IMG/VR virus record: IMGVR_UViG_3300014962_000057 | Location: 1 to 20,271 of that record | Reading direction: 5' to 3' (one strand) | Length of the DNA stretch: 20,271 bases | Source of the DNA: a virus | In this document: positions 1,602 to 20,173 of the stretch, one piece after another | Numbering within the stretch: position 1 is the first letter of the stretch | Layout: each line of letters begins with the position of its first letter | Made by a program: the position numbers and the translations under genes | The notes under the pieces: model-generated | Seen by the model: the letters and a program-made list of their open reading frames with translations, nothing else | The model's database searches: none | Told to the model about the DNA's origin: nothing

Positions 1602-1625
1602 AAAGGGTGGCATATGCTGCCCTTT
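1602..1625 (+). promoter_or_regulatory. Hairpin in terL leader
   Basis: AAAGGG pairs with CCCTTT around TG/TG (two G-U wobbles) and GC/GC, giving a 10-bp stem with an ATAT loop. It ends 8 nt before the terL ATG at 1634, downstream of the promoter candidate. The following bases are only TTT-G-TT, so it is a weak intrinsic terminator at best. Possible roles are attenuation between terS and terL, control of terL translation, or a packaging-recognition structure. Confidence 0.5.
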
Positions 1626-1633
1626 GTTATGAT

Positions 1634-2836
1634 ATGAGTGTAGTCAAAGGATATAAGCCCCATGCCAATCAAAGGATGATTCATGATTCAATCAATCTTG
1701 GACCATACAAGTACTATGTGCTGAACATAGGCAGGCAGTTTGGCAAGACTCTCCTGGGTATTAATCAGATGCTATGGTGGGCAATCAATGATAAGGGTTG
1801 CAATATCGCATGGGTCACACCGGTATACAAGCAGAGCAAGAAGGTGTTTGATGAAATGGAGCGCGTGACCAGGGCATCCGGCCTGTTTGAATTCCACAGG
1901 TCTGATTTATGGATCAAGGGCTTTGGGTCAACCATCACATTCTATTCAGGTGAGAAGCCTGACAATATACGAGGTAATACATTTGATTACCTTATCATTG
2001 ATGAGATGGCATTCACCAGGTCCGAGCTGTGGGATGAAGTCCTATCTGCCACGGTGTTGGTCAAGGGCAAGAAGGTCCTGTTCATATCAACACCAAAGGG
2101 GCGCAATCACTTCCACAGGTTGGCACTACAGCACAACTATGATGAGAGGTACAAATACTTTCAATTCAGCAGCTATGACAATCCGCTGATTGATGCACAG
2201 GATTTGGATGAGCGCAAGCGGTCATTACCTGACCATGTGTTCCGGCAGGAATACCTTGCTGAGTTTGTGGACAATGCATCCGGATTATTCCGAAACGTGC
2301 AGGCTTGCATAGGCACAGGACAGCCAACAGGCAAAGCATATGCCGGGCTGGATATTGGTAGGGCTGATGATTACACCGTGCTATCCGTGATCAACCAAGA
2401 TGGGCACATGGTGGCTGTGTACAGATGGAGGCACATGGAATGGTCCAGCATCATTGATCAAGTGGAGAAACGAATCAAGCAGCACAATGCGCTTACATTG
2501 GTAGAGGTCAATAACCAGGGTGATGTGTTCTATGAGATGCTGGCCAAGCGGTGCCGGAACAACATAGAGCCATGGGTTACCTCATCCAAGTCCAAGCCGA
2601 TCTTGATTGAGGATTTGGCTGTGGCATTTGAGCAGGCAGAGATTAGGGTGCATGATGAGCGGTGGCTGCTTGATGAATTGGAGGCATTTACGTACATTTA
2701 CAATCCGGCAACAAGATCGGTGAAGTATGCAGCACCGGATGGCTTACATGATGATGGGGTGATATCCCTGGCATTGGCTTGGCATTGCAGGAAGGCATAC
2801 AGTAAACGAGGGCAGTATAAAGTGATGAGAGTATGA
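1634..2836 (+). CDS. terL: Terminase large subunit (ATPase and nuclease)
   Basis: A 400-residue DNA-packaging motor with both expected domains. The ATPase has Walker A GRQFGKT (residues 33-39), Walker B DYLIIDE (118-124) and the coupling motif ISTPKG (151-156). The RuvC-fold nuclease has its acidic residues in GLDIGRADD (D240), LVEVNN (E291) and HDDGVISLALAW (D373/D374). Family knowledge: ATP hydrolysis pumps DNA through the portal, and the nuclease makes the initial and final cuts. The frame is open upstream to a GTG at 1607, but ATG at 1634 lies just past the leader hairpin and gives a normal N-terminus. The stop overlaps the next gene by ATGA (2833-2836). Confidence 0.95.
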   Translation: MSVVKGYKPHANQRMIHDSINLGPYKYYVLNIGRQFGKTLLGINQMLWWAINDKGCNIAWVTPVYKQSKKVFDEMERVTRASGLFEFHRSDLWIKGFGSTITFYSGEKPDNIRGNTFDYLIIDEMAFTRSELWDEVLSATVLVKGKKVLFISTPKGRNHFHRLALQHNYDERYKYFQFSSYDNPLIDAQDLDERKRSLPDHVFRQEYLAEFVDNASGLFRNVQACIGTGQPTGKAYAGLDIGRADDYTVLSVINQDGHMVAVYRWRHMEWSSIIDQVEKRIKQHNALTLVEVNNQGDVFYEMLAKRCRNNIEPWVTSSKSKPILIEDLAVAFEQAEIRVHDERWLLDELEAFTYIYNPATRSVKYAAPDGLHDDGVISLALAWHCRKAYSKRGQYKVMRV

Positions 2837-3546
2837 ATGTAATTGAGGTAAAATATCCAAGGCACATAAGGGAGTGCAGTCCTATCATGGTCACCAAGTG
2901 GCTACATATGGCACCATTGTGGAAAGAGGCACAGAGTAACCTGAGCGGTATGCTTGACTTCCATGTGCAGGTGGTAAATGTATTCACTGGATTAAAGGTC
3001 AATGAAATCAAGAGGGCAGCAGTTGATGATGTGGTGACTCTGAGCTACAGGCTGCTGAACATGATTGGTGATCATGAGATGGAAGAGCCATCCGGCAGGG
3101 TCGTGATTGATGGGCAGGCATATGTATATGAAAAGGATTTTAGCAAGATATCAACAGGTCAGATGATTGACATGAAGCTGATTGAGCGGATACCTGAGGA
3201 GCCTCACAAGGCATTGGCAATATGCTACATTGAGGAAGGCATGGAATACTGCCAAAAGGATGAGAGAGGCAGGGTGATGAATCCCAATGAAAAACGGGAG
3301 GAGATATTCAAGGACCGATTCCCAGGTGATGAATTTCTGAACTTCTTTGGTTTTTTTTTGCGCGAATCCGAGAGCAGGAGAAACGCTATCTTGGCTCTGC
3401 AGGTAGTGAGGATGGAAGCACAGAGGATGAAAGTGATGAAGGAAGTCCAAAAGACAGTGAATGGTTCACATGGACAGGAGTCATCCTCAGGCTGGCTAAA
3501 GAGCTTGGTAGGACGATTGACCAAATCACAGATCAACCGTACATAG
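2833..3546 (+). CDS. Tail assembly chaperone, zero-frame product (G-like)
   Basis: A 237-residue protein. Residues 95-175 have an alternating beta/helix pattern (YVYEKDFSKIS, GQMIDMKLIER) that I associate with Bacteroidota phage tail assembly chaperones. In lambda-like systems gpG coats the tape measure before tail-tube polymerisation, and a rarer frameshifted form gpGT recruits tube protein. At 3349-3360 the message reads GGT followed by nine T and G. The zero frame continues for 62 residues with an amphipathic helix (ESRRNAILALQVVRMEAQRM) and a Ser/Gly tail. In the -1 frame the same bases encode an acidic linker and a T-like domain. Start is ATG at 2833, ATGA-coupled to terL. The chaperone call rests mainly on the frameshift architecture. 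Confidence 0.6.
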   Translation: MNVIEVKYPRHIRECSPIMVTKWLHMAPLWKEAQSNLSGMLDFHVQVVNVFTGLKVNEIKRAAVDDVVTLSYRLLNMIGDHEMEEPSGRVVIDGQAYVYEKDFSKISTGQMIDMKLIERIPEEPHKALAICYIEEGMEYCQKDERGRVMNPNEKREEIFKDRFPGDEFLNFFGFFLRESESRRNAILALQVVRMEAQRMKVMKEVQKTVNGSHGQESSSGWLKSLVGRLTKSQINRT

Positions 3547-3647
3547 AAACCATGTTTTGGATGAACTACCTTAGGCTGAAGGATGAACAGCAATACATAA
3601 GAGATAGAGAGCATCAGCAACAAATGGCAGCGAAGTATGGCAGATAA
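2833..3647 (+). CDS. Tail assembly chaperone, -1 frameshift fusion (GT-like)
   Basis: If ribosomes slip -1 on the T run at 3351-3359, the product is about 271 residues: 175 shared, then 96 from the -1 frame, ending at TAA 3645-3647. The -1 frame is open from the T run onward. It encodes an acidic low-complexity linker (EDGSTEDESDEG), then GVILRLAKELGRTIDQI and a charged helix with MNYLRLKDEQQ and a C-terminal AAKYGR. 'LakelGrt...I' followed by a helix is the typical pattern of the T part of G/GT chaperones. Its stop overlaps the next gene's ATG (3637) by 11 nt, in keeping with neighbouring junctions, whereas the zero-frame stop would leave a 90-nt gap. A missing T in the assembly would also fuse the frames. 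Frameshifting is inferred, not measured. Confidence 0.65.
3351..3359 (+). promoter_or_regulatory. T9 slippery site for -1 frameshift
   Basis: Nine T follow GG, read in the zero frame as GGT TTT TTT TTG. T-TTT-TTT satisfies the X-XXY-YYZ slippery rule. Slippage by -1 joins the chaperone head to the T-like extension. Homopolymers of this length can also cause transcriptional slippage or sequencing indels. Confidence 0.65.
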
Positions 3648-9168: not shown

Positions 9169-12100
9169 ATGGCAAATAAGGAGGCAATATTCAGATTGAA
9201 ACTTGACACAGGTAATGCTGTGAGTCAGGTACAAAAACTTGATAAGTCAACACAGACTTTAAATAAGGATTTGAATAGCCTTAGCCAAACAGCTGAGCAG
9301 GATCTTGGCACCGCAATCAAGGAGCTGGAGGGTCAGATGGAAAAGATGGCCATGGCCGGAAAGCGAAACACACAGGAATACAAAGCCCTGGGTGCGGAGC
9401 TGTCAAGATTGCAGGGTATATTCTCAGCTGTGGAATCCGATATTAAGGTATTGGGTGCCAATATGAATGATGTCAGTGGATCCATCTCTGCAATGGAGGA
9501 CAGGCTATACACATTGGCTGCAACCGGTAATAAAAATACGCAGGAATTTAAGGATTTGTTTGCTGAATTGACCAGGCTAAAAACAGTACAACGTGAAGTT
9601 GATGCCATTGTGGATCAATCAGCCATCTCCATGGATGATACCTCTGCAGCCATTGGATTAATGGAGGACCGCATGTACCGCTTAGCTGTGCAAGGTAAGC
9701 AGAATACCAAGGAATACCGTGAGCTTACCTCTCAGATTGCCAAATATAAGACTACATTGCTTGATGCTGATATGGCTGTGGAGACGCAGATGATCAGCAC
9801 AAATGATTTGAGTGGTTCAATTGGTAAATTGGAGGACCGCATGTATGCGTTGCAAGCACAAGGCAAGCAAAACACTAAGGAATTTCGTGACAGCGCACAG
9901 CAATTGGTCCAATATAAAAAGCAATTGCAGGGTGTTGATATGCAGATTGATGCCATGATGCAGGGAGGTATGCGTTTGAATACTGCGCTGTCTGTTGGTA
10001 ATACGGCCATGGCAGGAATGCAAGGATTTGAGGCATCAATGAAGTTGGCAGGGGTTGAATCTGAGGCCATGACCAAGGCAATGCAAAAGATGCAGCTGGC
10101 TGTTACAGTATTGACTTCCATCCAGCAAGTGAGTATTGCGCTACAAAGGCAGGGATTGATTGTCACCACGTTGGCAAATGCAGCAGATAAGATACGTAAC
10201 TTTGTTTTGACCGGGCAATTTACAGCAACAGAGGCATTGGTTGCAGCAGAGGGTGAATTGATTGCAGTTGAGGGTGCTGAGACTGTTGCCACAGGTGCAT
10301 CAACAGCTGCAGATGTTGGGGCCACAGCTGCAACCGGTGCATTAACTGCAGCAAAGCAGGGGGAAGTTGCAGCAACAGGTGAGCAGATTGCAGTTGGTGT
10401 GACCGAAACAGGAACCAAAACAGGACAAGCTGTGGCCACATCCGGATTGGCAGCAGCAAATACAACGAATGCAGCAGCAACAACCACGGCAACATTGGCA
10501 ACCAAGGCATTGAGAGTTGCATTGATTGCCACAGGTATTGGTGCCATCTTGGTAGGTGTTGGTTTATTGGCAGCCAATTGGGATAAAGTTAGCCAGGCAT
10601 TGTTCAATGTATACGATTGGTTTAACAAGTTAGGCCCATTGATGAAGATTGTGGCAGGATCAGTGATGATTGCGTTTGGTCCAATCCTTTTGATGATCAT
10701 GGGCACCATGAAATTGATGGAGGCATTTGGAATTATTGATGATGAGCAAACAAGAAAGACCAAGGCCAATGCTGAAAAGCGCACGAAGGACCGTGACAAG
10801 GAGTTGAAAAAGGAAGCTAATAACATAAAAGGCAGGAGCGCAAGAATTCAAGCAGGATATGATTTTGAGATACGCATGGCGCAGGCAGCAGGTAAAAGCA
10901 CTACAGAATTGGAGCGTAAAAAACTTGTAGCAATGATCAATACAACCAAACAGCTTAGGATAAACTTGCAACAGCGTATGGCCAATTATTGGCAGGAGAT
11001 TGAAATGCTCAGGAAAGTAGGTGATACAGACAGTGATAGATACAAAAAATTGACCAAGCAATTTAAAGATGCCAGGACTGAATACAGAAAGAACAATCAA
11101 GAGTATTACAAGAATAGTCAAGATCTCAAAGTGATGGATGCAGAGAATGCACAGGCAGCTAAGGACGCAGCTAAGGAAAGAGCAGAGGCAGCCAAACAAG
11201 CAGCAGAAGCATCAGCGCAAGCAGCAGAGGATAAGAGAAGGAAGATCATTGAAATTGAAAAAGCTGAGCGTGCTGAGCTGTTGGCATTGGAAAAGGAATA
11301 CCAGGACAATTTGCTCGCATTGAAAGAGGACGGCCAAGAGAAAGAAAGGGAGCAAGCCATCCGGGCATTTGAGGAATACAAGAATACATTTCTTGAAAAA
11401 TCAATTGAGGAAGAAATCAAGGCAGAGGAGGAGAAATATGCCAAGGGCAAAATATCCAAAGCGCAATATGAGGAAAATCTTGCTAATCTGCGATTGAATG
11501 CAATCAACAATCTGAGTGAGGAGGAGCGTAAAGTATTAACAAGCAAAGAGGCATTATTGAATAAGGATCTTGCAGGCATTGACCAAAAGTATTTGGATTT
11601 AAGATCCAAGATGCAGGAGGAATATGCCGGTATGCAAGGTGATGAATTTGACAAAGAATTACGTGATTTCACCAAAGCACAGCGTGAAAAATTGGTCAAG
11701 CTCACAGAGATGTTAAAAGCTGGAGCCATTACTGAGGAACAGTATAGAAATGAAGTGGAGGCAATGGATGCTGCATTCACTGCTAAGCAAACTGAGATTA
11801 CTCAGGAACGTAATGAGAAATATCAGGCCATGGTCAGGGATAAATATGACCAGGAAATTGTTGAATTAAAACGTAAAACACAAGAGAGTGAGGCACAGCT
11901 TAGTATTGGATATAAGAATGGATACCTAACTGAGGAGCAATATAGGAATGCTATCCTAACACTGCAAGCAGATACAGCTGAAAAAGAGAAAGCAATCCAA
12001 GAAGCCAAGGCCAAGGAGCTGCGTGAGAAGGAACTTGCTGGAATTACTTCCACATTGGAAATGATACAGGGATTCCTGGATACGATGGGAGAGATTAATG

Positions 12101-12726
12101 CCAGCATCAATGAATATCAAAACGCAAGATTGGAATCACAGCGCACAGCTGATGAGCAAAGAATCAAAGACCTTGATGATAAGAAAGCTGCTGAGCTTGC
12201 TAATGAGAATCTGACTGCTGATCAGAAAAAAGCTATTGAGAAAAAGTATGCCATGGATTCATATAAGATCCAGCTGGCAATGTATGAACGTGAGGAGAAA
12301 ATCAAAAAGCAGCAGTTTGAGCGTGATAAAGCATTCAAGATTGCCAATGCCATCACAGGTACAGCTATGGCAATAGTGAAAGCCATTGCAGAGTTTGGAC
12401 CTCCTCCATCAGTTATGGGTACAATTGGTATTGCATCAGCTGCAGCCATTGGTACTGCACAGATTGCTGCCATTGCTGCACAAAAATACAAAGCAGGTTC
12501 TGCACCATCAATGCCAAATATTGCAGAGGGTGGTGGTGCTGGAATGGCAGGAGCATCTGCCAGCTCATTTACCGTATCTCAAAATACACAGGGAACAGAT
12601 TTGACTCAATTAATGAACGGTGAAAGTGGTGGCAAGATTCCAATGGCTAAGGTTGTTGTATTGGAGAGTGATATCACCGGGGTGCAGAATAAGGTGGCAG
12701 CACAGGAAAAACTTAGCACCTATTAA
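9169..12726 (+). CDS. Tail tape measure protein
   Basis: An 1185-residue helical protein, by far the longest here, which sets tail length and is ejected ahead of DNA. Residues 50-250 hold four repeats of exactly 56 residues. About 340-445 is Ala/Thr/Gly-rich. Hydrophobic segments at about 447-468 (VALIATGIGAILVGVGLLAA) and 491-522 are the usual membrane-inserting part. About 535-1080 is charged coiled coil with three SHOCT-like hairpins (KGKISKAQYEE at 757, AGAITEEQYRN at 849, NGYLTEEQYRN at 915). The C-terminus has a second hydrophobic stretch. No lysozyme or peptidase motif is seen. At the rough rule of 0.15 nm per residue it would span about 175-180 nm. The stop overlaps the convergent minus-strand gene by 14 bp. 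Confidence 0.9.
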   Translation: MANKEAIFRLKLDTGNAVSQVQKLDKSTQTLNKDLNSLSQTAEQDLGTAIKELEGQMEKMAMAGKRNTQEYKALGAELSRLQGIFSAVESDIKVLGANMNDVSGSISAMEDRLYTLAATGNKNTQEFKDLFAELTRLKTVQREVDAIVDQSAISMDDTSAAIGLMEDRMYRLAVQGKQNTKEYRELTSQIAKYKTTLLDADMAVETQMISTNDLSGSIGKLEDRMYALQAQGKQNTKEFRDSAQQLVQYKKQLQGVDMQIDAMMQGGMRLNTALSVGNTAMAGMQGFEASMKLAGVESEAMTKAMQKMQLAVTVLTSIQQVSIALQRQGLIVTTLANAADKIRNFVLTGQFTATEALVAAEGELIAVEGAETVATGASTAADVGATAATGALTAAKQGEVAATGEQIAVGVTETGTKTGQAVATSGLAAANTTNAAATTTATLATKALRVALIATGIGAILVGVGLLAANWDKVSQALFNVYDWFNKLGPLMKIVAGSVMIAFGPILLMIMGTMKLMEAFGIIDDEQTRKTKANAEKRTKDRDKELKKEANNIKGRSARIQAGYDFEIRMAQAAGKSTTELERKKLVAMINTTKQLRINLQQRMANYWQEIEMLRKVGDTDSDRYKKLTKQFKDARTEYRKNNQEYYKNSQDLKVMDAENAQAAKDAAKERAEAAKQAAEASAQAAEDKRRKIIEIEKAERAELLALEKEYQDNLLALKEDGQEKEREQAIRAFEEYKNTFLEKSIEEEIKAEEEKYAKGKISKAQYEENLANLRLNAINNLSEEERKVLTSKEALLNKDLAGIDQKYLDLRSKMQEEYAGMQGDEFDKELRDFTKAQREKLVKLTEMLKAGAITEEQYRNEVEAMDAAFTAKQTEITQERNEKYQAMVRDKYDQEIVELKRKTQESEAQLSIGYKNGYLTEEQYRNAILTLQADTAEKEKAIQEAKAKELREKELAGITSTLEMIQGFLDTMGEINASINEYQNARLESQRTADEQRIKDLDDKKAAELANENLTADQKKAIEKKYAMDSYKIQLAMYEREEKIKKQQFERDKAFKIANAITGTAMAIVKAIAEFGPPPSVMGTIGIASAAAIGTAQIAAIAAQKYKAGSAPSMPNIAEGGGAGMAGASASSFTVSQNTQGTDLTQLMNGESGGKIPMAKVVVLESDITGVQNKVAAQEKLSTY
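9316..9918 (+). repeat. Four 56-residue (168-nt) repeats within tape measure
   Basis: Repeat cores start at residues 50, 106, 162 and 218 with constant spacing. They share 'I..LEdrmy.LaaqGkqNTkEyr.l..ql...k'; examples are MEDRLYTLAATGNKNTQEF, MEDRMYRLAVQGKQNTKEY and LEDRMYALQAQGKQNTKEF. The last two copies are closest in DNA. Fifty-six equals eight heptads, in keeping with a continuous coiled coil lengthened by unit duplication. Confidence 0.85.
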
Positions 12727-13354
12727 GGAAGTCAATACAGCTGCCCTGTTTGAATTCATCTGAGATGCTGAAACATCCATATTTATGTAGCAGCTCATTA
12801 GCTTTCATGATGTCAGGCTTTCCAATCTTTAAATTCTCACCATCCATTGACAGAAAAGTATTCACATTTAGGTAGAGTGATTTAAGAAAGTGGTTGTGTT
12901 TCTGCCAGGTGATTTCATCAAATAGCTCAATGAGCTTGATGCTGTTAAACATCATTGGCTGATGGCATTCAAAGTTGAACGTGGTATATTTGTAATGATT
13001 TAGAAAGTCCAATGTATGTTGGCATGCCTGCTGATATACCGGTGAATGTTTCGGATTGACTTGCAATCTGCCGTTTTTAATATTGGTATATGGGTCAAAA
13101 TTGCTGCCGATAAAAAAGTCATCATTCATGTAGACAGCATCTCCGCCAATCTCCCTGGCAAACGTGAGTATTTTGTCAGTCACATCACATCCACGTTCAT
13201 GATATCTCTTTTTATGGGGTATATTCTCCCTGTTTGGTAGTGCATCTCCCACGGTTATGATCTCCGCATTTGGGAAAGCAGCCAGCACCCAATCAATTGA
13301 GCGCAGAATATCCCAATCATTTAGGTGCCGTATGTATGGATAGACAAATACCAT
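12713..13354 (-). CDS. Stealth/glycosyltransferase-like moron
   Basis: The only minus-strand gene in the window, 213 residues from the ATG at 13354; an upstream ATG at 13369 would add MYFCS. The pattern YPYIRHLNDWDILRSIDWVLAAFPNAEI, followed by VGD, then DAVYMNDDFFIG (residues 72-83) and FNFECHQPMMFNS (126-138), matches the 'MNDDFF' family annotated as glycosyltransferases in actinophages. It is related to Stealth capsule phosphotransferases. Asp in NDD would bind metal and sugar nucleotide. A role in modifying host surface polysaccharide or virion glycans is inferred. It converges on the tape measure (14-bp overlap) and diverges from the protease gene across 24 bp. Its orientation and its isolation between two late genes are those of a moron. 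Confidence 0.65.
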   Translation of the reverse strand: MVFVYPYIRHLNDWDILRSIDWVLAAFPNAEIITVGDALPNRENIPHKKRYHERGCDVTDKILTFAREIGGDAVYMNDDFFIGSNFDPYTNIKNGRLQVNPKHSPVYQQACQHTLDFLNHYKYTTFNFECHQPMMFNSIKLIELFDEITWQKHNHFLKSLYLNVNTFLSMDGENLKIGKPDIMKANELLHKYGCFSISDEFKQGSCIDFLNRC

Positions 13355-13358
13355 GGAA

Positions 13359-13366
13359 CAAAAGTA
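13359..13366 (-). promoter_or_regulatory. -7 box candidate for minus-strand gene
   Basis: On the minus strand this reads TACTTTTG, an exact fit to TAnnTTTG, ending 4 nt before the ATG at 13354. Transcription from it would give an almost leaderless mRNA and would favour 13354 over 13369 as start. No clear -33 TTG lies at the usual distance. Confidence 0.4.
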
Positions 13367-13379
13367 CATAATTTATGTA
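13365..13379. promoter_or_regulatory. 15-bp dyad in divergent gap (operator candidate)
   Basis: TACATAA-T-TTATGTA is a perfect inverted repeat around one central base. It lies between the divergent starts at 13354 and 13379, touching the -7 candidate of the minus gene and the ATG of the protease gene. It could be an operator or chance AT-rich symmetry. Confidence 0.35.
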
Positions 13380-14281
13380 TGAAGAAAGATCTGCCGGTAT
13401 ACGAGATTAAGATTGACCTCAATGATGAGGACACAGAGGTGACATTCAATAGCTTGGTGAGCAGTCCAGCGCATGAAATCAACTTTGAGACATTCAATAA
13501 AACACAAAGGTTTCAATTCAATGATGAAGAGAATGTGATTATTGGGGTTGCCATCTCAGCAGATACACCGATTTACAGATATGATTCAATAAGCAATGAG
13601 GAATACTATGTGGTGTTTACAAAGCAAGCAATTAAGGACATTGTGTATGACTATAGCCGTAAGGGGTATTTCAACAATGTCAACATTGAACACAATAGCA
13701 AGGATGTTGTGGATGATGTTGCCATGATTCTAAGCTACCAAGTTGATGAGAGCAAAGGATTGACTGCACCGGATAGATTTAAGGAGGTGAACGATGGCAG
13801 CTGGATAGTTGGGTACAAGGTGAGTGATGAAATCTTTGCCAAGGCCAAAGCAGGCGAATGGATGGGATTCAGTATTGAGGGGTTGTTTATGTTAACTGAG
13901 CAAGGTGCAAGCATGGAGGAAAACATGTGGGCACAGATAGCTGAGGAATTGGATGCATTACGCCAAGCATTTGCAAAGATGCGTGTATCATTTGATTTTG
14001 ATGAGACATTAAGCACATCACGAGGTCAACAATTAGCCAAACGTCACCTATCATTAGGAGATGAGGTATTCATTGTGACAGCACGACAGCAAAGCAAAGG
14101 ATCATCAGTATATGAGATGGCTCAAAAGTTAGGCATACGCAAGGAGAATGTGTATTTCACAGGCGGAAGAGACAAGTGGCAAACACTAAAAAGACTTAGA
14201 ATTGATCGGCATTATGACAACAATGCAGAGCAGATTGCATTAATCAAGGAATTTACTGAGATAGATGCAGTCAAATTTTGA
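13379..14281 (+). CDS. Prohead protease fused to HAD-type phosphatase-like domain
   Basis: A 300-residue two-domain protein. Residues 1-175 look like an XkdF-type prohead protease (herpesvirus-protease fold): IIGVAISADTPIYRYD, His in NIEHN (H105), Ser in GFSIEGLF (S165). It would cleave scaffold and capsid precursors inside the procapsid. After a linker helix (178-199), residues 201-300 form a compact HAD domain with all motifs: SFDFDETLS (D206, D208), IVTAR (T234), GGRDKWQTL (K266) and HYDNN (D280). In HAD phosphatases the first Asp is the nucleophile. What it acts on here is unknown; nucleotides, DNA ends or a protein phosphate are possible. ATG 13379 is preferred to GTG 13325, which would lie inside the minus-strand gene. 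Scaffold and capsid genes follow. Confidence 0.75.
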   Translation: MKKDLPVYEIKIDLNDEDTEVTFNSLVSSPAHEINFETFNKTQRFQFNDEENVIIGVAISADTPIYRYDSISNEEYYVVFTKQAIKDIVYDYSRKGYFNNVNIEHNSKDVVDDVAMILSYQVDESKGLTAPDRFKEVNDGSWIVGYKVSDEIFAKAKAGEWMGFSIEGLFMLTEQGASMEENMWAQIAEELDALRQAFAKMRVSFDFDETLSTSRGQQLAKRHLSLGDEVFIVTARQQSKGSSVYEMAQKLGIRKENVYFTGGRDKWQTLKRLRIDRHYDNNAEQIALIKEFTEIDAVKF

Positions 14282-16749: not shown

Positions 16750-17032
16750 ATTCATTGAGGAGCAAACGCAGGAGTCTTTGTACTGCATTCTGACCAATAT
16801 CAGCACAGGCATTCCACGTTATGATGAGTTTGTCCTGATTGATGGTGTTGATGTGACATTCCCATACGCAGGTTTTTACACATATAAAATATACCAACAG
16901 GCAAGCAGCACCAATTTGGACCCTTCGCTGTCTGATGGAATGGTGGAGGAAGGCCGTGCCCATGTTTATGAGGTAGATTCTCCATCTAATTACTTTGATT
17001 ACAACGTGACAAATTTCGTCTATGAGCAATAA
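16661..17032 (+). CDS. Head/tail-associated small protein (hypothetical)
   Basis: A 123-residue protein from ATG 16661; the frame is open further upstream, but the preceding residues look non-coding. The pattern PYYLFEFIEEQTQESLYCILTNIS, then VTFPYAGFYTYKIYQQASSTNLDP and EEGRAHVYE, is one I associate with many Bacteroidota phages near the portal gene, with no known function. Beta-rich; likely a virion component. It overlaps the previous gene by 89 nt and the portal gene by 11 nt. Confidence 0.55.
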   Translation: MLRIERNQQNTLIVTVSELTTIPAPYYLFEFIEEQTQESLYCILTNISTGIPRYDEFVLIDGVDVTFPYAGFYTYKIYQQASSTNLDPSLSDGMVEEGRAHVYEVDSPSNYFDYNVTNFVYEQ

Positions 17033-19034
17033 GGTTTTAAATGTCCAATTTAGCAAGTCATTCACCGCACCGGTGGAGGAATTGGATAAGGCACAGGGTT
17101 TCATTAAGTGGGGCAAAAAAAATGACTATCCTTTTTTCTTGATTGATCTCCTGCACGGTTCTGCCTGGCACCAAGGAATTGTTAAAAACAAAAGTTACTA
17201 TATTGCTGGAGGTGGAATTGAAACGGTTTCAGGTGATGCACAGTCTTTCATTAACAATGAATACCGTGACTTTGATATGAACGAGGTTGTGCAGCGCATG
17301 ACCTTTGACTTTGAGGTGTTTGGTGCCATGTGTGTTAAGGGTACCTGGAATAGAGAGGGTACAAGAGTGGTGGCATGGGAGCATTTGGATATTGATGCCT
17401 GCCGATTGTCTGAGGATGAGCGTACACTTTATGTATCGGATGATTGGAATGCACGCAGGCAATCACCGGAGGATACAAATTTCCGAACATATCCTGCCTT
17501 AGATGAGGACAATCCGGGCGGTTCATTCTTTATATATTACAAGGAGCCAAGTAAACAGGCCAAGGGAGAGAAAGGAATCTATCCAAAGCCTCCATACGTG
17601 GGTGGAATCACAGCAATACAGACCGATTGCGACATATCAAGATTCCACATGTTTGAAATCAGCAACGGATTCAAGGCCGGTACCTTGATTAATTTGCCTG
17701 GAGGATTTCCTGAAACAGCTGAGGAGGAGCGCAAGATACGTGAGCAGATAAAAGGACCTGTTCAATCTGTGGAATCAGCCGGTGAGATTATTATCACATT
17801 CAGTCAGACCAAGGATGATGCACCAAGTGTGATGCAATTGTCAGGCAATGACTTGGATAAGCGGTATGAGATGACCGAGAAAGCTGTCCAACAGAATATT
17901 CTTGTGGCTCATTCCATCACTGCACCTACATTGTTTGGTATCATTCAGCAGGGATCATTTAATGCAGCAGAGAGTGCAGATTTATTTGAGATATTTAAGA
18001 TTACATATGTAAGCTCACGGCAGAAACAGATTGAATGGTTATTAAATTACATGTGTACATTGAGCGGTAGCACGGCAATCATTAAGCTGAAAGATGTATC
18101 TCCATTGGGTGTAGCACAAGATTCAGCAGCAACAACAACAGATACAACTATACCAGCTGATCCATTGACTGAGGCTACAATTGATGTGGCTAAAACAGCA
18201 TTAAACGGAGCGCAAATTGCATCAATCATTGATGTGGTGGCAGCCATTAAGGAAGGAGTGTTAACACCTGAGGCTGCATTGCAGGTATTATTAGCATCGT
18301 TTCCAACGATTGCAGAGGATCAAGCCAGGCAAATTGTTGGATTGCAATCCGGTGATATGTCATTCTGCAACCATAAGCAGATGTTTAGCAAGGAAAGCAT
18401 TGAATTATTTGAGCAACATGGTGAGGCACGTGAGCAGTTTGAAATAATCAAGAGTGTTCCAATTGAATGGGATACACCAAGCGAGGAGGTATTCAATCAT
18501 GAGGCACAATTGTTTGATGAGATAGGGCAGATAATGGTGCAGCTTACTGATCAAGAAAAGGCTGTATTGACATTATTGCAGGAAGAGGATGAAGAGGCTG
18601 GCTCAATTGCCAAAGCATTGGGTGAACCATTGCAGGTGATTGTTCAAATCATTGATAAATTAGTGATATTGGGCCTGTATGAAAAGCCATCTTTAGATGC
18701 TAATGGTGTGCGCATAGGTGGATCAGTTACATCAACAGGTGGTGAGATAGTGAACAGGATACCAACATCTGAGCAACCAAAATATGAGATACGTTACAGC
18801 TATGAAACACGTAAAGATGTACCTCCTGTAAAAACCAAGAGCAGGAATTTCTGCCTGTCATTGTTGCGATTGGATAGGCTGTACACACGTGAGGAGTTAT
18901 CTTTTATCAGCGCACAAGAGGGCAGAGATGTATGGAGATATAGAGGTGGATGGTATACTAATCCGGACACAGGTAAAAGTACACCATGGTGCCGTCACAT
19001 TTGGATGCAGAACTTAGTAAAACGTAAGCAATGA
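17022..19034 (+). CDS. Portal protein with winged-helix insert and C-terminal Cys/His domain
   Basis: A 670-residue portal, the ring at the capsid vertex through which DNA passes. The N-terminal two thirds have portal features: WGKKNDYPFFLIDLL, a clip/wing region, ISRFHMFEISNGFKAG and the stem-like MTEKAVQQNILVAHSITAPTLFG followed by GSFNAAESADLFEIF. Two additions follow. Residues 505-560 (LTDQEKAVLTLLQEE...SIAKALGEPLQVIVQIIDKLVILGLYE) look like a winged helix-turn-helix. Residues 608-670 (RNFCLSLLRL, REELSFISAQEGRDVWRYRGGWY, WCRHIW) resemble the Cys/His C-terminal part of phage minor head proteins, suggesting a merged portal-minor head protein. It is ATGA-coupled to the next gene. Confidence 0.75.
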   Translation: MSNKVLNVQFSKSFTAPVEELDKAQGFIKWGKKNDYPFFLIDLLHGSAWHQGIVKNKSYYIAGGGIETVSGDAQSFINNEYRDFDMNEVVQRMTFDFEVFGAMCVKGTWNREGTRVVAWEHLDIDACRLSEDERTLYVSDDWNARRQSPEDTNFRTYPALDEDNPGGSFFIYYKEPSKQAKGEKGIYPKPPYVGGITAIQTDCDISRFHMFEISNGFKAGTLINLPGGFPETAEEERKIREQIKGPVQSVESAGEIIITFSQTKDDAPSVMQLSGNDLDKRYEMTEKAVQQNILVAHSITAPTLFGIIQQGSFNAAESADLFEIFKITYVSSRQKQIEWLLNYMCTLSGSTAIIKLKDVSPLGVAQDSAATTTDTTIPADPLTEATIDVAKTALNGAQIASIIDVVAAIKEGVLTPEAALQVLLASFPTIAEDQARQIVGLQSGDMSFCNHKQMFSKESIELFEQHGEAREQFEIIKSVPIEWDTPSEEVFNHEAQLFDEIGQIMVQLTDQEKAVLTLLQEEDEEAGSIAKALGEPLQVIVQIIDKLVILGLYEKPSLDANGVRIGGSVTSTGGEIVNRIPTSEQPKYEIRYSYETRKDVPPVKTKSRNFCLSLLRLDRLYTREELSFISAQEGRDVWRYRGGWYTNPDTGKSTPWCRHIWMQNLVKRKQ

Positions 19035-19659: not shown

Positions 19660-20173
19660 ATTTTTTCAGGGTGATTTCTTAGATGCAATCAGCCGTGATG
19701 CTGCGCAATATCCTTTGATGGTTGTGACATTAGCACCGGGTAATGTCAATGATGTAAGTGTACAGGTAAATGCAACCATAACAATCTGTGATAAGTACAA
19801 TCATTCAGAATATAGGCAGATAAATGAAGTACATTCTGATTGTCTCAGTATAGTAAATGACATCAATACCACATTTAGGCAGTACAGATGGACTGAGTTT
19901 GTGGATATATTGGATGATATAGGTATTGAACCATTCATCAATGAGGGGCAGGACATGGTTGCAGGGTGGACTATGCAGGTAAATTTTGAGGTATACAATG
20001 AATTGAATTGGTGTGATATCCCATATGATGGGTATGACTTTGAGAATGGTCCTGCAGCTGTCACAGATTGCGGTGATCCGTACACAACATATAACGTATA
20101 TTTGAATGGAGTCTTAGTAAATACCTTTAACCAGGCAACAACAGAAAACAATACTATTAATATCAATTTGTAA
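19589..20173 (+). CDS. Tail completion/terminator-like protein (hypothetical)
   Basis: Up to 194 residues. The pattern IANAHRQINEFFQGDFLDAI, then YPLMVVTLAPG, VSVQVNATITICDKYN and DCLSIVNDINTTFR, fits the mixed alpha/beta fold of tail-terminator or neck proteins near the connector, ending in a beta-rich Thr/Asn-rich extension (YNVYLNGVLVNTF...). A start at ATG 19613 would reduce the overlap with the small upstream gene and keep this core. It is TAATG-coupled to the next gene at 20173. Function inferred from position and pattern. Confidence 0.45.
   Translation: MLRTLNQVMRELNEIANAHRQINEFFQGDFLDAISRDAAQYPLMVVTLAPGNVNDVSVQVNATITICDKYNHSEYRQINEVHSDCLSIVNDINTTFRQYRWTEFVDILDDIGIEPFINEGQDMVAGWTMQVNFEVYNELNWCDIPYDGYDFENGPAAVTDCGDPYTTYNVYLNGVLVNTFNQATTENNTININL

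Follow-up and report, generated by a model that had tools for sequence, protein, structure and literature searches.

The window analysed here is a stretch of 20,271 bp taken from an IMG/VR virus record, and it carries a set of packaging and structural genes (Table 1). One of these genes begins at position 2833, overlapping the end of TerL, and bears a run of nine T's (T9), which is the sole T run of seven or more nucleotides in the whole window. The zero frame extends ~62 residues past the run, and the -1 frame is open from 3351 through 3647. Because the zero frame ends at 3546 and the -1 frame only at 3647, a segment of ~186-190 nt could be read in both frames. A single -1 switch at the run would join the 175 shared codons to 96 codons of the -1 frame, yielding a fusion of 271 aa. 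The window sequence confirms the original prediction of a T9 run at 3351-3359 within an open frame, with the -1 frame open to 3647. That prediction also had the -1 frame ending exactly where the next gene starts, which is nearly the case, with the end of the frame overlapping the next ATG (3637) by 11 nt.

Table 1. Coordinates of the T9-bearing gene, its parts and other genes of the window
Feature	Position	Strand	Remarks
TerL	1607-2836		
Portal-like gene	17022-19034		
Protease-like gene	13325-14281	+	
Tape-measure-like ORF	9169-12726		long, coiled-coil
Zero-frame ORF, short (G-like) product	2833-3546	+	237 aa; relatives aligned full length
Shared N-terminal (G-like) domain	2833-3357	+	175 codons to the end of the slip codons
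T9 slippage run (putative)	3351-3359	+	GGT TTT TTT TTG; one in-frame T_TTT_TTT heptamer (3351-3357)
Dual-coding segment A	3360-3449	+	zero-frame helical extension (LRESESRRNAILALQVVRMEAQRMK..), strongly constrained
Dual-coding segment B	3450-3543	+	-1 frame (start of T-like domain) strongly constrained
Zero-frame stop	3544-3546	+	TAG
-1 extension after slippage	3357-3647	+	96 aa + stop; TAA 3645-3647
-1 frame acidic linker	3390-3455	+	predicted disordered; pLDDT <50, residues 13-35 of the -1 model
-1 frame helical T-like domain (SEWFTWTGVILRLAKELGRTIDQITDQPYIETMFWMNYLRLKDE..)	3456-3602	+	helices predicted

Several other features of the window were recorded. Two overlapping plus-strand frames each carry a part of a Peptidase_S74 (endosialidase chaperone) domain: the ORF at 1-825 matches profile positions 1-24 and the ORF at 822-1076 matches positions 18-57. 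The split may represent an indel, a sequencing error or another frame switch, and no homologue of this region (1-1076) was found among the relatives fetched. On the minus strand, an ORF of 218 aa (12713-13369) fills the gap between the tape-measure-like and protease-like genes and contains a ‘YMNDDFFIG’ motif that, by eye, recalls glycosyltransferase-like proteins. The first half of the protease-like ORF matches Peptidase_S78_2, a family of phage proteases, and near the end of the ORF there is a match, below the curated cut-off, to a 5'-nucleotidase family, which suggests a putative protease/5'-nucleotidase fusion.

Relatives of the T9-bearing gene were collected in two clades. In clade 1, to which the window belongs, a first scan yielded 80 loci with 43-93% identity, all of which align through the zero-frame tail, barring contig ends and one apparent deletion. 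Together with two alignment-based searches using the G-like domain and one using the T-like domain, a total of 151 distinct loci was obtained. The run is T9 without exception (151/151), its codon phase does not vary, and both frames are open. The zero-frame tail comprises 63-64 codons in 126 of the 146 relatives having both ends, and the -1 frame ends 38-134 nt beyond the zero-frame stop. A clearly shorter tail is found only in the pair L061/L062, with the stop at 130 nt, and the tail of L011 is shortened through an apparent internal deletion. Moreover, the three T's that occupy zero-frame wobble sites (run positions 1, 4 and 7) underwent no change across 144 sequences, compared to a single unchanged site among the 159 zero-frame wobble sites upstream of the run. 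The bacterial genome collection yielded a single relative, which belongs to an unclassified MAG and lies on a contig of 3.3 kb (RGVP01000218.1).

Structural search with Foldseek, using the modest-confidence model of the zero-frame protein against viral models (BFVD), revealed P12024S_38 of Nonlabens phage P12024S. The corresponding gene is located directly 3' of TerL and carries T9 at 23578-23586 as CTT TTT TTT TAT, after which the -1 frame runs on to 23830 with an equivalent domain. Profile comparison showed that the G domains of the two clades are homologous (probability 97%, E 3e-11) and that the T-like domains are colinear (E 0.004). Two further scans gave 125 distinct members of clade 2, and in all 125 of them nine or more T's are followed by a continuing -1 frame. 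The run is T9 in 112 members, T10 in 12 and T12 in one, and none is shorter. The T9 runs fall mostly in codon phase 1 (109), in addition to two in phase 0 and one in phase 2. Thus pooled, the two clades contain ~276 distinct genes, in none of which the run is below nine. Comparison of these genes shows that the putative T9 slip site is conserved, that both frames are maintained and that the run length is kept at nine or more. The programmed -1 frame switch with a fused product that had been predicted is supported by these ~276 relatives; a T10 run fusing the two frames was looked for and found in none of them, and the search for a relative with one uninterrupted frame was equally negative.

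Some members of clade 2 deserve a separate description. In P12024S (JQ823122.1, 23136-23830), P12024S_38 and P12024S_39 together make up a single T9 gene, the former being its zero-frame part and the latter its -1 part; they are annotated as two hypothetical genes and belong to the PHROG families phrog_32199 and phrog_38404. In a freshwater subclade (L277-L320), the overlap reaches 245-260 nt and leaves just 23-38 nt of -1-only sequence, so that the T-like domain is dual-coded nearly throughout, and substitution in the overlap is strongly reduced. A structural match to the zero-frame protein was also found in gp10 of Flavobacterium phage 6H (10044-10939, minus strand). Behind gp10 lies an ORF without annotation (10361-10044), the C-terminal part of which is T-like. 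With no T run and no clear frame relation between the two, 6H is not counted as a further case.

To describe how constraint is distributed over the two frames, substitutions were counted by parsimony on a tree of 144 sequences for which the upstream domain alone was used. Upstream of the run, the zero-frame codon positions 1/2/3 show about 4/2/17 changes per site. In the three 30-nt blocks that follow the run, the values are 2.8/5.7/6.0, 3.7/4.0/10.1 and 8.2/6.6/11.7, and the next three have 3.4/10.4/2.8, 2.2/11.5/9.0 and 4.2/13.6/7.6, followed by 1.8/16/3.5 in the -1-only region. Since the -1 frame has its wobble at zero-frame position 2, the fastest-changing position shifts, within the overlap, from the wobble of the zero frame to that of the -1 frame. 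A similar division emerged from pairwise four-class counts: changes that are non-synonymous in the zero frame and synonymous in the -1 frame occur at 0.072 in nt 9-98 after the run and at 0.194 in nt 99-188, whereas the opposite class (zero synonymous, -1 non-synonymous) drops from 0.174 to 0.080. For reference, the shared N-terminal domain is under purifying selection (zero-frame dN 0.061, dS 0.341), and the flanking synonymous rates, taken as neutral, are 0.34 and 0.26. Compared to the neutral rate, the zero frame evolves at ~1/4 in the first half of the overlap and ~2/3 in the second. The -1 frame follows the reverse trend, in addition to a strong constraint in its first ~10-12 codons. Clade 2 displays the same pattern in a weaker form.

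In segment A of the window, constraint on the -1 frame accordingly lies mainly in the first ~12 codons, which precede the acidic linker, and in segment B the zero frame encodes a Ser-rich tail that is weakly constrained, yet kept open. Among ~514 changes at -1 wobble positions, ~20-28 zero-frame stops would be expected and 1-2 lineages with a stop were observed; similarly, when the -1 codons were resampled synonymously, the zero frame stayed open to the observed extent in ~5% of draws (mean over 32 representatives), and because the sequences are interrelated both figures are indicative rather than exact probabilities. Protein-level selection on the whole zero-frame tail was considered and rejected, as it is not supported in the second half beyond the frame staying open. 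Judged from these substitution patterns, the sequence 3' of the run truly codes in both frames and is organized as a relay, in which selection maintains the zero frame for ~30 codons and the -1 frame beyond them, with both frames constrained at the very start. The helix and Ser-rich tail predicted for the zero frame therefore fared differently: the helix (~30 codons) is strongly constrained, and the Ser-rich end is mostly shaped by the -1 frame. Likewise, the predicted 186 nt of coding in both frames stands insofar as both are open over 3360-3543, with the constraint being divided between them.

The arrangement of the run is informative about the mechanism of slippage. Counted 5' and 3' of the two slip Phe codons, the flanking T's number (1,2), (2,1), (3,0), (2,2) or (3,1), with a sum never below 3, and the partitions that yield T7 or T8 are all absent. 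On the clade-2 tree, the partition changed ten times by parsimony without once shortening the run, and the T10 forms adjoin rearranged T9 forms. The varied partition, together with the absence of T7 and T8, indicates that the total length, whatever the codon phase, is what selection keeps. An in-frame T_TTT_TTT heptamer is present in all relatives of both clades, but its presence is uninformative, as T9 holds exactly one such heptamer in every phase. Stimulatory elements, which are common for -1 ribosomal frameshifting and not obligatory, were looked for on both sides of the run. Downstream, RNAalifold predicts no pair, and the folding z-score has a mean near 0 in clade 2 and is at most -0.8 in clade 1. 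A small AGCG/CGCT hairpin ~15 nt past the run was rejected as a candidate; it pairs in 81% of cells with no compensatory change, and it is disrupted in the window's own subclade. Upstream of the run, a Shine-Dalgarno-like stimulator is essentially absent from the relatives. The conservation of a run length of at least nine rather than of the heptamer, along with the lack of conserved stimulators, favours slippage of RNA polymerase. A run of nine or more in any codon phase is what a polymerase needs in order to slip. Consistently, the motifs listed for transcriptional slippage include Tn with n>8 (PMC3711429), and selection against slippage-prone A/T runs is evident from a length of nine in many bacterial genomes (PMC1088944).

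Slippage during transcription is probably the better reading of these patterns than a ribosomal event. The competing proposal, in line with the programmed -1 frameshift of the original prediction, is a programmed -1 ribosomal frameshift in which two tRNA-Phe slip on U_UUU_UUU, just as on the slippery heptamers of other G/GT genes, the extra U's being incidental or modestly raising the efficiency. This is a possible but less probable explanation. It fits the heptamer found in every relative, and part of the flanking T's can be put down to hydrophobic residues that are conserved in both frames, which counts against the transcriptional reading. Moreover, the G/GT frameshifts known from experiments take place on the ribosome (PMC5009743), and in E. 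coli U_UU.Y tetramers come second in the ranking of -1 slippage (PMC4066793). However, seven T's suffice for the heptamer, yet runs of seven or eight occur in none of the 276 genes, which cover three codon phases, and neither a stimulatory structure nor a Shine-Dalgarno-like element is conserved. The heptamer that ribosomal slippage needs was thus found throughout, but the conservation of run length points to transcription. Two further explanations concern the length of the run in the DNA itself. Homopolymers are a classic site of sequencing and assembly errors, and a true T10 run would turn the gene into one fused frame; this is extremely improbable, given exactly T9 in 151/151 relatives from many separate metagenomes, T9 again in the isolate genome of P12024S, and a zero-frame tail that is conserved and free of stops. 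Replicational slippage, by which populations would switch between T9 and fused T10 genomes as in phase variation, is scarcely more credible. Long T runs do mutate readily, and T10 and T12 forms occur in clade 2, but these keep the frame relation and so reflect codon changes rather than out-of-frame indels, and every clade-1 genome has length 9 only.

Concerning function, the gene is likely, by analogy, a tail assembly chaperone of the G/GT type, as the -1 domain is T-like. The acidic linker followed by a T-like domain, as originally predicted for the -1 frame, is supported, and the invariant residues of this domain are S36, E37, W38, F39, W41, T42, P63, Y64, F69, W70 and N72. The layout comprises a short product and a -1 fusion with a linker and a compact helical domain, inside a structural gene cluster. 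Pfam and PHROG scans of both frames gave no significant family and no Pfam above threshold, the closest match being a weak one to the ‘tail protein’ family phrog_337 (E 0.052). A PDB fold search with the low-confidence AlphaFold models (mean pLDDT 59 and 64) was empty. The predicted chaperone identity is thereby backed by the layout and the T-like domain, but not by a significant database match. Alternatively, the slippage and the two products could be real and yet the protein could have a role other than that of a tail chaperone, such as a factor for head or neck assembly encoded beside the terminase gene. This proposal concerns function only and is compatible with either slippage mechanism. 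The gene directly follows TerL, with the tape-measure-like ORF 5.5 kb away rather than directly downstream, and it has no family match, all of which would suit such a factor. Nevertheless, we consider it unlikely, in view of the G-plus-T layout, the resemblance of the -1 helical domain ‘LakElG.tiDqIT..P....mfWm.y’ to the T parts of chaperones, and the phrog_337 match, weak as it is.

Altogether, we favour a two-product tail chaperone gene of the G/GT type with transcriptional slippage at T9 and relay dual coding, to which we assign a probability of roughly 0.58. In the favoured model, the main expression would produce the 237-aa protein, consisting of the G-like domain and the helical extension. 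On the T9 template, the host RNA polymerase most likely adds one extra U, and ribosomes would then read the resulting U10 mRNA as one continuous frame. Slippage at T9 would in this way direct a minority of expression into the -1 frame, giving a fusion of ~271 aa that combines the same G-like domain with the acidic linker and the helical T-like domain. As in lambda, the G part would bind the tape measure and the T part would recruit tail tube subunits. We infer the product ratio, the slippage at transcription and the chaperone role alike.

Tailed phages widely conserve G/GT switching, a recoding event that is taken to be ribosomal. Slippage that yields two products from such genes is already known; the new part is the combination of long relay dual coding with a length-conserved T run. 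A literature search, which left some key older papers outside its scope, found no paper linking transcriptional slippage to a phage tail chaperone and none describing long relay dual coding with a length-conserved T run. The broader proposal, for which the odds appear about even, is that in a large group of tailed phages, most of them unannotated, the ratio of the tail chaperone products is set by RNA polymerase slippage at T runs of at least nine instead of ribosomal frameshifting, the T-like domain being overprinted on the C-terminal extension of the short product over up to ~260 nt. The one cultured example of this group, P12024S, infects a marine flavobacterium. If the run length is indeed what is kept rather than the heptamer, the same two-product logic would have moved to transcription, as it likewise did for dnaX in different bacteria. 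In addition, a long and divided dual-coding segment with hundreds of homologues would provide a natural case for studies of overprinting. The families phrog_32199 and phrog_38404, to which no function is assigned, would be explained as halves of one gene, and the annotation of the cultured phage P12024S would be corrected.

A close parallel is gpG/gpGT of phage lambda, whose frameshift works at low efficiency. The two systems share a short product and a -1 fusion with a common N-terminal domain and a T-like C-terminal extension. However, the annotated overlap of lambda G and T is 18 nt, compared to ~190 nt here and up to 260 nt in relatives, and in lambda the tape measure gene H comes immediately after T, whereas the two are 5.5 kb apart in the window. 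A further difference is that slippage here occurs at a T9 run, possibly during transcription. Phage P2 gpE/gpE+E' resembles the present gene in having a -1 extension within a tail gene operon. With its frameshift site at 19685 and the end of E at 19705, P2 has 20 nt of dual coding, and E+E' directly precedes the tape measure gene T, which is not the case here. Set against these two annotated cases, the long dual-coding segment is unusual, as had been anticipated. Regarding the mechanism, transcriptional slippage at a U run in Shigella mxiE similarly adds one nucleotide and links two overlapping ORFs into a longer product (PMC1088944), but mxiE encodes a bacterial regulator instead of a phage structural protein. 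In dnaX of Thermus thermophilus, a nine-base run also sets the ratio of two products (PMC1088944); that run, however, is A9 rather than T9, acting by transcriptional slippage (PMC3711429), and slippage there shortens the product. The gene of Nonlabens phage P12024S is likewise close, with a homologous G domain directly after TerL, a T9 run and a -1 extension, but with the run in another codon phase, just ~83 nt of dual coding, and the two parts annotated as separate genes.
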